Source: Candidatus Marivariicella framensis
GTDB lineage: Bacteria > Bacteroidota > Bacteroidia > Flavobacteriales > Flavobacteriaceae
Direction: 5' to 3'
Length of the DNA: 64,000 bases
Assembly: GCA_905182735.1 (NCBI GenBank)
Contig: CAJJCT010000031.1
Coordinates: 1-64,000, forward strand
Shown: piece after piece, positions 3,265-8,668 of the stretch
Position numbering within the stretch: the first letter of the stretch is position 1
How the letters are laid out: each line of letters begins with the position of its first letter
Made by a program: the position numbers and the translations under genes
The notes under the pieces: model-generated
The model's input: only the letters and a program-made list of their open reading frames with translations
What the model was told of the DNA's origin: nothing
Databases searched by the model: none

Positions 3265-3675
3265 TTAATAATCACTTTTTGGAATAACCGATCCATGAGG
3301 ATCAATTAATTCATCCCCTAACATTTCTCTCATTCTGTTAAAGAAACTCGAATTCTCTATGTGCTCTATTTCTTCAGCAATTTCATGAACTTGATCTACT
3401 GAAAAATTCATTTCTTTAACTAAATATAATTCAATAAGCCTGTGTTTTGAAATAATTTCTATTGCCTTTTTTCTTCCTTTAGAAGTCAATTCAATTGGCT
3501 TATATGGCATTGTATCAATAAACCCCATCTTCACTAATTTATTCAACATGTTTGAGACAGTAGACTTACTTACTTTAAAAAAAATACTGAGCGCCGTAAC
3601 TGTTACCTTATTATTTTTCTCTTCAAACTTGTAAATAGTTTTTAGATAATTTTCTTTTTCAATTGTTTTTTTCAT
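3265..3675 (-). CDS. DtxR/MntR-type metal-dependent transcriptional regulator
   Basis: 136 aa: an N-terminal winged helix (KVTVTALSIFFKVSKSTVSNML, with TSKGRKKA in the wing) followed by a dimerisation/metal-binding helix region with KHRLIELYL and a cluster EEIEHIEN. These carry the Glu, Glu-His and His ligands expected in MntR and DtxR. It stops after the dimerisation domain and so lacks the C-terminal FeoA/SH3 domain, like the short MntR form of Bacillus. It is divergent from a TonB receptor gene across 56 bases that hold two palindromes. It probably represses that receptor and its own operon when iron or manganese is bound; which metal is not decided by the sequence. Confidence 0.85.
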   Translation of the reverse strand: MKKTIEKENYLKTIYKFEEKNNKVTVTALSIFFKVSKSTVSNMLNKLVKMGFIDTMPYKPIELTSKGRKKAIEIISKHRLIELYLVKEMNFSVDQVHEIAEEIEHIENSSFFNRMREMLGDELIDPHGSVIPKSDY

Positions 3676-3679
3676 AAAT

Positions 3680-3696
3680 GTTTTGTAGTATAAAAC
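3680..3696. promoter_or_regulatory. palindromic operator copy 1 (putative DtxR/MntR-type site)
   Basis: GTTTTGTAGTATAAAAC is a near-perfect inverted repeat: seven of eight pairs match around a central G. It lies 4 bases upstream of the regulator start codon. A second copy differing at one base lies 26 bases away. Assignment to the adjacent regulator is inferred from position. Confidence 0.6.
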
Positions 3697-3711
3697 TTTA
3701 TAATAGTTTTG
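3682..3711 (+). promoter_or_regulatory. Bacteroidota-type promoter for the TonB receptor gene
   Basis: TTTG (3682-3685) and TAGTTTTG (3704-3711, matching TAnnTTTG) are separated by 18 bases, the spacing known for the Bacteroidota -33/-7 promoter. Transcription would start near 3715, giving a leader of about 17 bases before the GTG at 3732. Both elements sit inside or across the two palindromes, so a bound repressor would block them. Confidence 0.55.
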
Positions 3712-3722
3712 CAGTATAAAAC
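3706..3722. promoter_or_regulatory. palindromic operator copy 2 (putative DtxR/MntR-type site)
   Basis: GTTTTGCAGTATAAAAC repeats copy 1 with one change (T to C) and shares the flanking CTTT. It ends 9 bases before the receptor start codon and overlaps the -7 element of the predicted promoter. Confidence 0.6.
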
Positions 3723-3731
3723 TTTTTTTTA

Positions 3732-5975
3732 GTGTATCGAATTCTATATATATTTTTCATTTTTGTTAAAATATCATATGCCCAAGTTTATCCTATAACA
3801 GGCAAAGTGTTTTCTGAAGGTTATCCTCTTCCAGGTGCCTCTGTAATAATTAGCGGAACCAAAATAGGAACTATAACTAATCAATCTGGTTATTTTATCA
3901 TAAACGTATCTAAGGTAAAGAATCCCAAAATAATTATTTCATATATAGGGCATAAATCTTTCAGTCAAAAAATAAGTTATAGTAGAAAAAATATTGGATC
4001 AATTGAATTAAAGTTAGATGATCAATTAAATGAAGTAGTTATTTCTGGAACATTAAAGCCAGTTTCAAAACTAAATAGCCCCGTACCTGTTGAAGTTTAT
4101 ACTAAAGATTTTTTTAAGGGAAACCCAGCCCCTTCTGTTTTTGAGTCAATGGGGATAATAAATGGTGTTAGACCCCAACTAAACTGTAATGTTTGTAGTA
4201 CTGGAGATATTCATATTAATGGACAAGAAGGCAGTTATACAATGGTTTTAATTGATGGACTTCCAATCGTAAGCGGGTTATCATCAGTTTATGGATTATC
4301 TGGTATACCACAATCTTTAATCGAGCAAGTTGAAATTGTTAAGGGACCTGCATCAACTCTTTATGGGTCAGAGGCAATAGGAGGATTAATCAATTTAATA
4401 ACTAAAATGCCTGCAAATGCTTCGAAATTTTCTTTTGATTCCTTTACCTCAGGGTGGGGAGAAATAAATACAGATTTAGGTTACAAGTACAAATCAAAAA
4501 ACAAAATACAAGGCATTTTAGGTATAAATTATTTCAATTATTCGAATCCTATTGATAATAATAATGATGGGTTTACAGACTTAACACTAGTAGATAGAAT
4601 CTCAATTTTTAATAAGTTGGATTTCAAAAACAAACTATCTGTTGCAACTAGATACATTTATGAAGATAGGTGGGGAGGACAAATGAACTGGTCTTCAAGT
4701 TTTAGAGGTGGAAAAGAAGTATATGGAGAAAGCATCTATACTAGTAGAATTGAGGTTTTTGGAAAATATGATTTTAATAAAAACTTATTTTTTCAATTTA
4801 GTTTTAATAATCATGATCAAAATTCAGTTTACGGAAGCACAATATATAACGCAAAGCAATCAATAGGTTTTGGTCAATTAATTTGGACTAAAAATTTAAA
4901 AATTAACTCTTTTCTTTTTGGTTTAGCATATAGATATACATATTATGATGACGATACAACAGCAACATTTAATGAGGGTTCATCATCTAATATGGCAGAG
5001 ATAACAAACCTTCCAGGTTTTTTTATACAAGATGAAATAAAAATCAATGATTTAAATACAGTTCTCCTAGGCTTAAGGTATGATCACAATTCAATTCATG
5101 GAAACATATTCACTCCAAGATTAAATTATAAAATTACTAATCAAGACAAATCTTCAACTGTAAGATTTAGCATTGGATCAGGTTATAGAATTGCAAAGGT
5201 TTTTACAGAGGATCATGCAGCTTTAACTGGAGCTAGAGATGTTGTTTTTTTAAATGATTTAAAACCTGAAAGATCATGGAACACAAACATGAATTATGTA
5301 AAAAAAATATATGCTAAACAAGGTTATATACTAGATTTTGATGCCAGTATTTTTTGGACAAAATTCTCAAATAAAATTGTTCCAAATTATGATATAAATC
5401 CAAATCTCATAATTTATGATAATTTAAATGGTAGATCCATAACTAAAGGAGCATCAATAAATTTTAATTCATTATTTAATAATGGACTTAGAATTAACAT
5501 TGGTGCTACTTATATAGACTCATCAATTATTGAAGATGGAGAAGAGTACACTCCATACTTAACAGAAAGCTTTCAAGGAGTTTGGAAGATTGAAAAGAAA
5601 TTTATTAAATCTAAGTATAAAATAGATTTTACTGGAAATATTATAGGGAAAATGAGACTTCCTAGATTAGGGTCATTGGATCCAAGAGATGAATTTTCTC
5701 CAGTTTTTAGTATAATAAACTTACAAATAACAAAGTCTCTTAAGAACAATTATGAATTTTATGGTGGTGTTAAAAATATTTTAAATTTTACACCTGCTGA
5801 AAATAGTATTGCCCGCTCATTTGATCCTTTTGACAAAAAAGTACTATTTGATCAAAATGGAAATGCTACTCAAACTATTGAAAATCCATATGCACTTACA
5901 TTTGATCCATCATATGTTTACGCTTCCAATCAGGGTATTCGATATTTTATTGGAATGAGATGGAGTTTAGACTGA
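3732..5975 (+). CDS. TonB-dependent outer-membrane receptor (probable metal or chelate uptake)
   Basis: A 747-aa receptor. A signal peptide ends near ISYAQ. A carboxypeptidase-regulatory-like domain follows (about 20-105: GYPLPGASVIISGTKIGTITN), then a plug domain (about 110-225; VLIDGLPIVSG, EIVKGPASTLYGSEAIGG) and a beta-barrel ending in an aromatic-rich strand (GIRYFIGMRWSLD). The plug has a CNVC motif just before GDIHING, unusual because outer-membrane receptors seldom hold paired Cys there. The start is a GTG 9 bases after a palindromic operator. It is convergent with the PepSY-flavoreductase gene, only 2 bases apart. Divergence from a DtxR-like regulator and the neighbouring reductase suggest iron, heme or another redox metal complex. 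The substrate is not provable from sequence. Confidence 0.88.
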   Translation: MYRILYIFFIFVKISYAQVYPITGKVFSEGYPLPGASVIISGTKIGTITNQSGYFIINVSKVKNPKIIISYIGHKSFSQKISYSRKNIGSIELKLDDQLNEVVISGTLKPVSKLNSPVPVEVYTKDFFKGNPAPSVFESMGIINGVRPQLNCNVCSTGDIHINGQEGSYTMVLIDGLPIVSGLSSVYGLSGIPQSLIEQVEIVKGPASTLYGSEAIGGLINLITKMPANASKFSFDSFTSGWGEINTDLGYKYKSKNKIQGILGINYFNYSNPIDNNNDGFTDLTLVDRISIFNKLDFKNKLSVATRYIYEDRWGGQMNWSSSFRGGKEVYGESIYTSRIEVFGKYDFNKNLFFQFSFNNHDQNSVYGSTIYNAKQSIGFGQLIWTKNLKINSFLFGLAYRYTYYDDDTTATFNEGSSSNMAEITNLPGFFIQDEIKINDLNTVLLGLRYDHNSIHGNIFTPRLNYKITNQDKSSTVRFSIGSGYRIAKVFTEDHAALTGARDVVFLNDLKPERSWNTNMNYVKKIYAKQGYILDFDASIFWTKFSNKIVPNYDINPNLIIYDNLNGRSITKGASINFNSLFNNGLRINIGATYIDSSIIEDGEEYTPYLTESFQGVWKIEKKFIKSKYKIDFTGNIIGKMRLPRLGSLDPRDEFSPVFSIINLQITKSLKNNYEFYGGVKNILNFTPAENSIARSFDPFDKKVLFDQNGNATQTIENPYALTFDPSYVYASNQGIRYFIGMRWSLD

Positions 5976-5977
5976 TC

Positions 5978-8170
5978 TTAATAGCAATCTAAAAGTAGTT
6001 GACCATTATTTTCAAACTCGCTTAATGATTGATTGAGATTTTTTGATGATATTTCTTCAAGAACATCAAGAACATCGTGCTGCATTGATAATGATCCACA
6101 TATCATTATTACTCCATTATTTTTTATTGTATCACAAACTTGATCTTTGTTTTCAATTAAAACGTCTTGAACGTATTGTTTTTTATTTTCTTTCGATAAA
6201 GCCTTATAAAAATGTGAAAGATTATTTTTTGATATAGCTCTATTTATATATTTTTCATAAATTTTTAGAGACTCCTTAGTTCTTCCTCCCCAAAATAAAT
6301 ATAATGGTATTTGAGTATTATTTTCATTAATCATTCCAAGAAAAGGAGCAATACCTGTTCCATTAGATATTAAAATAACAGAATGTGCTTTTTTTGGAAA
6401 ATGAAAATTAGAATTACTTTCAAAAGTAGCATTTAAAGAATCACCGATATTGAGTTCACTTAAATAAGAAGAACAAAAACCTTGATCATGTTTTTTTATA
6501 CTCAATAATAAATCTTCACCAATCTTTCCTATAGAATATTGTCTTGTATAATTATTTTCTTTTGGGAGAATATTTAATAAATCTCCAGACTTAAAATTGA
6601 AGTTTTTTTCAGACTGTAATTCTAATAAAAATGTATTATCAATATTTAATTGTTTTCGATTTATGACTTTAAAATAATTGGTTTTTAATTTCTTTTTGAT
6701 CGGTTTAGTTATTTCTAAATTTAAATTAATTGCTGTAACCTTTGACCATTTTTTAATCCAAAACTCAAAGGCGCTTTTTGATTCTTCATTAATCTTGTAA
6801 AGAGGCATTATTGATTTAAACTTGGGATTATTATTAAGTATTTTATCAACGTCAATAGCAAATTGGCAATAATTTGGATACATTAATGATCCAAAACCTA
6901 CAACTGAAAAATTCATTTCATTTACAGGAATACTAGTTTCTAGTTTTCTTTCAAATAAGCGAGCATTTGATGGAGCTTCTCCATCCCCATAGGTGGCAGT
7001 AAACACAATAATATTCTTTGCTTTTTCATATTGAGTATAGTCGCTTAATGATGATATAAATGCATTCTTTCCTGCTTTAACTAAGCTGTTATAAAAATGT
7101 TTGGCAAATGTATAAGTGTTACCTGTTTCTGAACCTACTAAAATTATATACTCACATTCATTTTCGCCCAATACTTTATTTGTTTTTTTACTTTTAAGAA
7201 TTCGTTTAAGTCCCATTGAAAATCCAGAATACATAAAAAATAACATACTTGAACTTGCTATAAATAAAATAATAGACCATAATATACTTCCTCTTCCTGT
7301 ATGTAAAATTAAGTTCCATCGTGCAGCTAGTTTCATAAAAGGATAATGAGATTCTTTAATAACTCTTCCCGAAAACTGATCAATAATTAGCACTCTATCT
7401 TTAAGAGAAAGTTCAAAAAAATCTTCTTTAGATTTTGAAAAGGGAAAAGTTAAACTTCTAACTTCTTCTAATGAAATAGTTTCAAAAAAGCTTGTTAATG
7501 ATTTGTTATTCACTAATTCACTTTGTTTATCATTCCAACTATAATTCAAATAATTCTTTGGTAATAACGATAATTTCTCGATTGACAAAAACACTCCCGT
7601 TACTGCAACTATTATTATAGGAAGAACCAACCACCTTCCCAAAACAACATGATATTTTTGATTAAAATTACCGTCCTTTACGCGCTTAAACCACTTACTA
7701 AAACCACCTTGTCTTTTTGCTAACAAAAAAATTCCTGTAACTCCGATAAAACAGAGCAGCAGTGAAACTAAACCTACAAAAATACGACCAATAGTTTTGA
7801 GGAAAAGTGATCGGTGTAGATTAGTGATGAAACTGAAAAATCGTTTTTGTTTTTTGACCAAACCAATATTTCCTCCAGTTATAGGGTCTATGTAAATTTT
7901 CTTTGCTTGTCCATCATCTGTAATTACTGACGCTATAACAAAATCATCCTCTGTAACTTCTATTTTAATTGTTTCTTTATAATTTTTATTGAGACTTAAA
8001 ACAGTTTGATTGAGTGAAACTTCCTCAAGTGAAGTCAAATTATATGGCTGAATTGAAACTGCTATAGGTTCAAAAGCGAGAATTCCTCCAGTTATGGAAG
8101 CGATTAGTAAAAAAAGTGAAGAAATTAATGCAAGTAAAAAATGACTATATCTCCAAATAAGAAGTGACAT
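5978..8170 (-). CDS. PepSY membrane protein fused to flavodoxin and FAD/NAD(P)H reductase domains
   Basis: 730 aa. The N-terminal half is a PepSY-associated membrane module, with hydrophobic helices near residues 1-35, 130-155, 175-200 and 285-320. Its helices carry His residues (RYSHFLLA, NLHRSLFL, KYHVVLGRW, NLILHTGRG) suited to ligating heme. The C-terminal half reads like a sulfite-reductase flavoprotein: a flavodoxin domain (GSETGNTYTFA, ATYGDGEAPSNA), an FAD domain (RQYSIGKIG) and an NAD(P)-binding domain (GTGIAPFLGMI, LFWGGRTKESL). Such a protein should carry electrons from cytosolic NAD(P)H across the inner membrane to a periplasmic acceptor, for example a ferric chelate. It lies 9 bases after the DUF2271 gene, as a two-gene operon. 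Domain calls are firm; the acceptor is inferred. Confidence 0.85.
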   Translation of the reverse strand: MSLLIWRYSHFLLALISSLFLLIASITGGILAFEPIAVSIQPYNLTSLEEVSLNQTVLSLNKNYKETIKIEVTEDDFVIASVITDDGQAKKIYIDPITGGNIGLVKKQKRFFSFITNLHRSLFLKTIGRIFVGLVSLLLCFIGVTGIFLLAKRQGGFSKWFKRVKDGNFNQKYHVVLGRWLVLPIIIVAVTGVFLSIEKLSLLPKNYLNYSWNDKQSELVNNKSLTSFFETISLEEVRSLTFPFSKSKEDFFELSLKDRVLIIDQFSGRVIKESHYPFMKLAARWNLILHTGRGSILWSIILFIASSSMLFFMYSGFSMGLKRILKSKKTNKVLGENECEYIILVGSETGNTYTFAKHFYNSLVKAGKNAFISSLSDYTQYEKAKNIIVFTATYGDGEAPSNARLFERKLETSIPVNEMNFSVVGFGSLMYPNYCQFAIDVDKILNNNPKFKSIMPLYKINEESKSAFEFWIKKWSKVTAINLNLEITKPIKKKLKTNYFKVINRKQLNIDNTFLLELQSEKNFNFKSGDLLNILPKENNYTRQYSIGKIGEDLLLSIKKHDQGFCSSYLSELNIGDSLNATFESNSNFHFPKKAHSVILISNGTGIAPFLGMINENNTQIPLYLFWGGRTKESLKIYEKYINRAISKNNLSHFYKALSKENKKQYVQDVLIENKDQVCDTIKNNGVIMICGSLSMQHDVLDVLEEISSKNLNQSLSEFENNGQLLLDCY

Positions 8171-8179
8171 ATATTTTAT

Positions 8180-8668
8180 CTAATTAGAAATCATCCTTAT
8201 GTAATGTATAAATCCACTTCCTTCTATTTTATTATTAATATTTTCAGAGGTCAAATCAAACTGAATATCTTCAATATAATATTTTTGGTCCTCAACTGAA
8301 CTTTCAAACCTAACGCTATAACCTTTATCGATCTTATCGTTAGGTATTTTTATCAAACTAACTGTTCGTTCACCTCCACTCACTGTTTCTCCAGTAATGG
8401 CATCAATATTATTTCTAATTTTGCCATAAAATCTCCACCATTTACTTAATTCATTATACCACTCTTTATCTTTGCCTTGAACAAAAAGTGTGCTTTCGTA
8501 ATCTCCTTCTGGGTTAATTAGTGATATTATGATATATGCGCCAAACCCATCATAATCTGTCATCTGAATCATACATTTAACATTAGTAGTGTCTAATATT
8601 TTTGAATATGAAAACATTAAGAAACTTATCAAAACTATAACTATTGAGGTTTTTAATCTATTTTGCAT
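8180..8668 (-). CDS. DUF2271 family periplasmic protein
   Basis: 162 aa with an N-terminal hydrophobic segment (about 8-25) that acts as a signal peptide or anchor. The body fits DUF2271: GAYIIISLINPEG, a TLFVQGKDKEWY block, a W-rich WYNELSKWWRF, and DAITGETVSGG. The molecular role of the family is not established; members are often encoded next to PepSY proteins. Here it is the first gene of an operon with the PepSY-flavoreductase, so it may be a periplasmic partner of that electron route. Confidence 0.7.
   Translation of the reverse strand: MQNRLKTSIVIVLISFLMFSYSKILDTTNVKCMIQMTDYDGFGAYIIISLINPEGDYESTLFVQGKDKEWYNELSKWWRFYGKIRNNIDAITGETVSGGERTVSLIKIPNDKIDKGYSVRFESSVEDQKYYIEDIQFDLTSENINNKIEGSGFIHYIRMISN

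Follow-up and report, generated by a model that had tools for sequence, protein, structure and literature searches.

Paired palindromes over a TonB-dependent receptor promoter are candidate operators of a short DtxR/MntR-family regulator in marine Flavobacteriaceae

The iron repressors IdeR and DtxR recognise the operator TTAGGTTAGSCTAACCTAA, which has the 14-bp core TTAGGNNNNCCTAA (PMC8464063). In Bacillus subtilis MntR and Treponema pallidum TroR, both DtxR-family repressors, the SH3-like domain is naturally absent, and for T. denticola TroR the requirement for this domain depends on the operator (PMC2628430). Within the Bacteroidota the family includes PgMntR of Porphyromonas gingivalis, which regulates the metal transporter FeoB2 and is located with it; PgMntR carries two FeoA domains, the second of which is essential for DNA binding, and its variable ligand positions are occupied by Asp and Cys (PMC4805248). 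DR2539 of Deinococcus radiodurans has an SH3-like domain and an inverted-repeat operator and regulates mntH (PMC3327659).

We analysed a 64,000-nucleotide stretch of DNA from Candidatus Marivariicella framensis, referred to as the window. An initial annotation had described two tandem palindromes, 26 bases apart in a 56-base spacer, between a DtxR-like regulator gene and a divergent TonB receptor gene, and a TTTG-18-TAnnTTTG receptor promoter embedded in them. We found both palindromes exactly as described, and the promoter is likewise present in the window and kept in relatives. The features of the locus are as follows.

3265 to 3675, minus strand: short DtxR/MntR-family regulator of 136 aa without a FeoA/SH3-like domain (Pfam PF01325 and PF02742), in one clade with 60 other short regulators.
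3680 to 3696, no strand assigned: candidate operator O1, GTTTTGTAGTATAAAAC, an 8-1-8 palindrome overlying the -33 box of the TBDT promoter, kept in relatives.
3682 to 3711, plus strand: TBDT promoter, TTTG (3682-3685), N18, TAGTTTTG (3704-3711); the same layout with N18-N20 occurs in 28 scanned regions.
3706 to 3722, no strand assigned: candidate operator O2, GTTTTGCAGTATAAAAC, overlying the -7 box and the predicted TBDT transcription start, kept in relatives 26-28 bp from O1.
3732 to 5975, plus strand: TonB-dependent receptor (TBDT) of 747 aa, divergent from the regulator, with Pfam plug and barrel domains.

The spacer runs from the regulator ATG (3675, minus strand) to the TBDT GTG (3732). 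O1 and O2 are 17-bp palindromes with a start-to-start distance of 26 bp; O1 lies 4 bp from the regulator ATG, and 9 bp separate the end of O2 from the TBDT start. Both are near-perfect: of the 8 arm positions, 7 pair in site 1 and 6 in site 2. Pattern searches, which were used for all genome-wide work, located three exact GTTTTRYANTAYAAAAC sites in the genome, two in this spacer and one before a ZIP transporter gene. No GTTTTRYANTRYAAAAC match arose in a random control of 10 sequences of genome size with the dinucleotide make-up of the window. A scan of the same genome that allowed two mismatches was discarded, as its 60 matches were near the background of 47 given by the reversed control.

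The -7 box consensus TAnnTTTG was placed at -12 to -5 in a transcription map of F. psychrophilum (PMC9723704). If the -7 box sits likewise here, TBDT transcription would start near 3716, within O2. The promoter has the form of a Bacteroidota sigma-A promoter, in which TTTG stands about 19 bp upstream of TAnnTTTG, with N18 here and N18-N20 in relatives. Both of its TTTG elements are the left arms of O1 and O2. Where two sites occur, their distance is 26, 27 or 28 bp and tracks a promoter spacing of N18, N19 or N20 between TTTG and TAnnTTTG; the one exception is locus L096, at 44 bp. No good promoter toward the regulator gene was readable in the genome of the window. Autoregulation is suggested by the operator 4 bp off the regulator start codon.

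Of 64 related loci, 56 have the receptor next to the regulator. Its nearest named models are siderophore and colicin receptors, and no substrate can be named from its sequence. Genes for a PepSY-flavodoxin reductase and a DUF2271 protein lie next to it in the window (5978-8668), and likewise in genome G100 (L149). In the sister genome G053 a fatty-acid hydroxylase gene directly follows the receptor gene, which suggests that the reductase pair is movable.

The regulator contains both core domains of the family, the N-terminal winged helix DNA-binding domain PF01325 (E 1.9e-17) and the metal-binding and dimerisation domain PF02742 (E 2.2e-20). It gives no Pfam match to the C-terminal FeoA (SH3-like) domain typical of the DtxR/IdeR subfamily and stops at 136 aa. 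Our search of genome contigs yielded 64 loci with such short regulators, mostly of 136 aa, from marine Flavobacteriaceae including MS024-2A, Arcticimaribacter, Formosa Hel1_33_131 and many MAGs and single cells; the genomes compared are mostly MAGs. On the tree the short regulators form one clade with 100/99 support and a long stem. In one of them (L145, 4001-4411) the reading frame is broken after 36 codons while both operators are intact, which may be an assembly error or decay.

The metal ligands H78, E82, H97, E101, E104 and H105 are retained in 60-61 of 61 short regulators and map to DtxR H79, E83, H98, C102 (Glu here), E105 and H106. The regulator resembles IdeR and DtxR in its core domains, in the ligands corresponding to H79, E83, H98, E105 and H106, and in an inverted-repeat operator over a promoter. 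It differs from them in a wholly different operator sequence, the missing SH3-like domain, Glu for Cys102 and Asn for Met10. This last place, position 9 of the regulator and Asp8 of MntR, is Asn or His among the short regulators instead of Met or Asp. Like MntR and TroR, the regulator has no SH3-like domain, but the Asp8 and Glu11 that Bacillus-type MntR uses in its binuclear Mn site align with Asn9 and Lys12 here (MntR numbering from PMC4805248 and PMC3327659), and the operators and target genes differ. PgMntR compares with it as a Bacteroidota family member that is located with the transporter it controls; PgMntR's FeoA domains, its variable ligands and its FeoB2 target set it apart. By sequence, the closest solved structure is 8pvt, which we take to be DR2539 of D. 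radiodurans. DR2539 shares the Lys at the Glu11 place and the inverted-repeat operator, but not the lack of an SH3-like domain or the target gene (PMC3327659).

The initial annotation had made its proposal depend on the palindrome being conserved upstream of orthologous genes. We checked about 60 genomes and found that it is: a motif of this type lies upstream of 53 of 61 short regulators and of none of the 73 long ones (mean in shuffles, 0.02 or less). Conversely, a TTAGN6CTAA box was found in 39 of 73 long-regulator regions, so that this box is not universal either (absent from 34 of 73), and in 0 of 61 short-regulator regions, which hold no operator resembling the IdeR/DtxR core. The two kinds of site are mutually exclusive and track regulator type, which bears out well the suggestion that the palindrome is a lineage-specific, non-classical recognition sequence. 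Our searches of the open-access literature turned up no published operator of this kind.

Eight short regulators are exceptions. Six have no adjoining TBDT, and with the E-value cut applied their genomes yielded no TBDT either; the others are L119, which has a variant site, and L090, where a dehydrogenase gene lies between regulator and TBDT and both sites remain with the TBDT. All 24 genomes of the window's own regulator group have a GTTTTRYANTRYAAAAC site, with 39 sites in total versus 4 for the reversed control. Only 4 of the 39 lie elsewhere than the regulator/TBDT locus or the ZIP gene, a number equal to the control. We therefore set aside as chance the exact sites that relatives have at other places, two genomes inside pyrG and two between proS and a lipoprotein gene, since they are as many as in the control. 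The latter two, in G507 and G515 (L235 about 1949, L237 about 1993), are exact GTTTTGTAWTATAAAAC sequences between divergent proS and lipoprotein genes and possibly a promoter coincidence.

The sites fall into two subtypes. In group 1, to which the genome of the window belongs, the arms read GTTTTRYA; in group 2 (Formosa-like) the arm not serving the TBDT promoter reads GTTCACYA and the arm serving it GTTTTGCA. The general group-2 pattern alone was too loose for use. Arm position 6 in group 1 is G in 48 of 50 promoter-side arms but 15 of 50 opposite arms, an asymmetry that fits separate pressure from RNA polymerase and repressor. Regulator residues 9 and 39 split with the operator subtype, being Asn and Thr in 30 of 30 and His and Ser in 23 of 23. 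IdeR has Thr40 at the place of residue 39, and Thr40 is among the four residues for which base contacts have been reported (PMC8464063). A tie between these residues and the operator subtype is suggestive only, since the two residues changed together on one branch and do not count as independent evidence.

A second target may be the ZIP transporter gene, which is unlinked to the regulator. An operator lies upstream of ZIP genes in 14 of 49 genomes, against 0 in 500 shuffles, and its subtype fits that of the regulator in all 14 (six AAAAC-type sites with Thr39, eight GTGAAC-type with Ser39). All five genomes without the TBDT in which a ZIP gene was located have the ZIP operator. A ZIP site common to the whole clade was rejected, as it is missing in most group-1 relatives. 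The Nramp genes of the window's genome (contigs C13 and C9) lack the operator. In that genome the ZIP-side site (G000:C7:81369-81385; L001, L078), which sister species do not share, lies within a copy of a longer stretch of the regulator/TBDT locus.

3661 to 3719, no strand assigned: cassette that takes in the first codons of the regulator gene and has a copy, matching at 54 of 59 positions, on contig C7 upstream of the ZIP transporter gene.

The best unrelated 59-mer of the window has 36 matching positions versus 54 for the ZIP-side stretch, and the ZIP upstream regions of sister genomes lack about 40 bp where the copy sits. On the simplest reading of these sequences, the ZIP gene in the genome of the window received a copy of the operator-promoter cassette; the -7 box there (TATTTTTG) may be native.

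We conclude that the palindromes are very probably the operators of the adjacent short regulator, and we hold with considerable confidence that they serve to repress the TBDT, and probably the regulator gene too, when metal is plentiful. The kind of site goes with the kind of regulator (53 of 61 against 0 of 73), regulators without an adjoining TBDT are without the motif, the L090 sites stayed with the TBDT after the regulator separated, unlinked ZIP sites match in subtype, site distance keeps step with promoter spacing, and the metal ligands are retained. That the L090 sites remain with the TBDT after the regulator gene moved off would be in keeping with sites of another transcription factor such as Fur, with the DtxR gene a mere neighbour, and Fur is present in 13 of 13 genomes checked. 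We consider this improbable, since Fur occurs in long- and short-regulator genomes alike while only the short regulator is accompanied by the motif, and since the subtype at the unlinked ZIP gene agrees with the DtxR subtype throughout. The repeats might also be nothing but promoter elements (TTTG and TAnnTTTG) in AT-rich DNA. The left arms do fall on the -33 and -7 boxes, 48 of 50 group-1 sites have TTTTG as their promoter-side arm, and conservation of the TTTG arms could largely stem from the promoter alone. However, the opposite arms have no part in the TBDT promoter and yet are kept too (outer-end G, T, T in 74 of 74) and form the palindromes, whereas other promoters of these genomes lack them and the excess over control is confined to this locus and the ZIP gene. 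A role as promoter elements only is thus highly improbable. Against the operator reading itself stand the absence of ZIP sites from most group-1 relatives and of the DtxR-type box from nearly half of the long-regulator regions (34 of 73).

The identity of the effector is a separate matter, and here manganese is favoured, possibly with iron as well. An IdeR-like repressor that uses the same operators to control a siderophore receptor in response to iron rather than manganese is a tentative alternative, in keeping with the nearest named TBDT models, with the transport of several divalent metals by ZIP proteins, and with DR2539, which also has Lys for Glu11 and answers to both Mn(II) and Fe(II) (PMC3327659). 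Manganese is preferred because the Glu at the DtxR Cys102 place is MntR-like, because a separate Fur is present for iron, and because PgMntR shows better DNA binding with Mn and comes off the DNA with Fe (PMC4805248). Under the operator reading, plentiful metal (most likely Mn, perhaps also Fe) would place regulator dimers on both O1 and O2. O1 would then mask the -33 box and O2 the -7 box and the start, so that the TBDT is shut off; the regulator gene itself would probably be shut off too, and both directions could be silenced at once. Metal shortage would release the dimers. The loss of the SH3-like/FeoA domain need not abolish function, since it is absent from T. pallidum TroR and B. subtilis MntR and, in T. 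denticola TroR, is needed or not depending on the operator.

The divergent DtxR-TBDT pair also occurs in many other genera of Flavobacteriaceae with full-length regulators. These pairs share with the window an orthologous TBDT (mostly 50-58% identical) and an operator in the common spacer, but their regulators are of about 220 aa with a FeoA domain (found in both of two scanned) and their spacers hold a single TTAGN6CTAA-type box, such as TTTTTAGATTAGTCTAAAAA or GTTAGATTAATCTAAC, near the IdeR/DtxR core. Of the long regulators, those placed nearest on the tree (L025, L059, L049) carry the TTAG form. Together with the shared pair, this suggests that the gene pair is old and that the operator was exchanged on the branch on which FeoA was lost, in either order. 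Two further spacers were observed. Genome G226 (L049, L147), outside the family, has long and short regulators together, each with its own box type, in a bin that is 68% complete with 4% contamination, so that contamination is possible. The spacer of G041 (L024/L257) contains GTTTTATTAATCTAAC, a short-type left half joined to a long-type right half, possibly an intermediate form.

As reconstructed from these comparisons, it is likely that the repressor of a marine Flavobacteriaceae branch lost its FeoA/SH3-like domain and swapped TTAG-N6-CTAA for GTTTTRYANTRYAAAAC while keeping the same divergent target, with two operators now on the -33 and -7 boxes, and that the regulon in the genome of the window then gained the ZIP transporter through a copied operator-promoter cassette. 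Such copying is a plausible route for a gene to enter a regulon. The locus would offer a clean before-and-after comparison of one gene pair whose repressor has shed a domain and switched to another DNA target, and it would provide a specific operator for the metal repressor of many mostly uncultured ocean flavobacteria.
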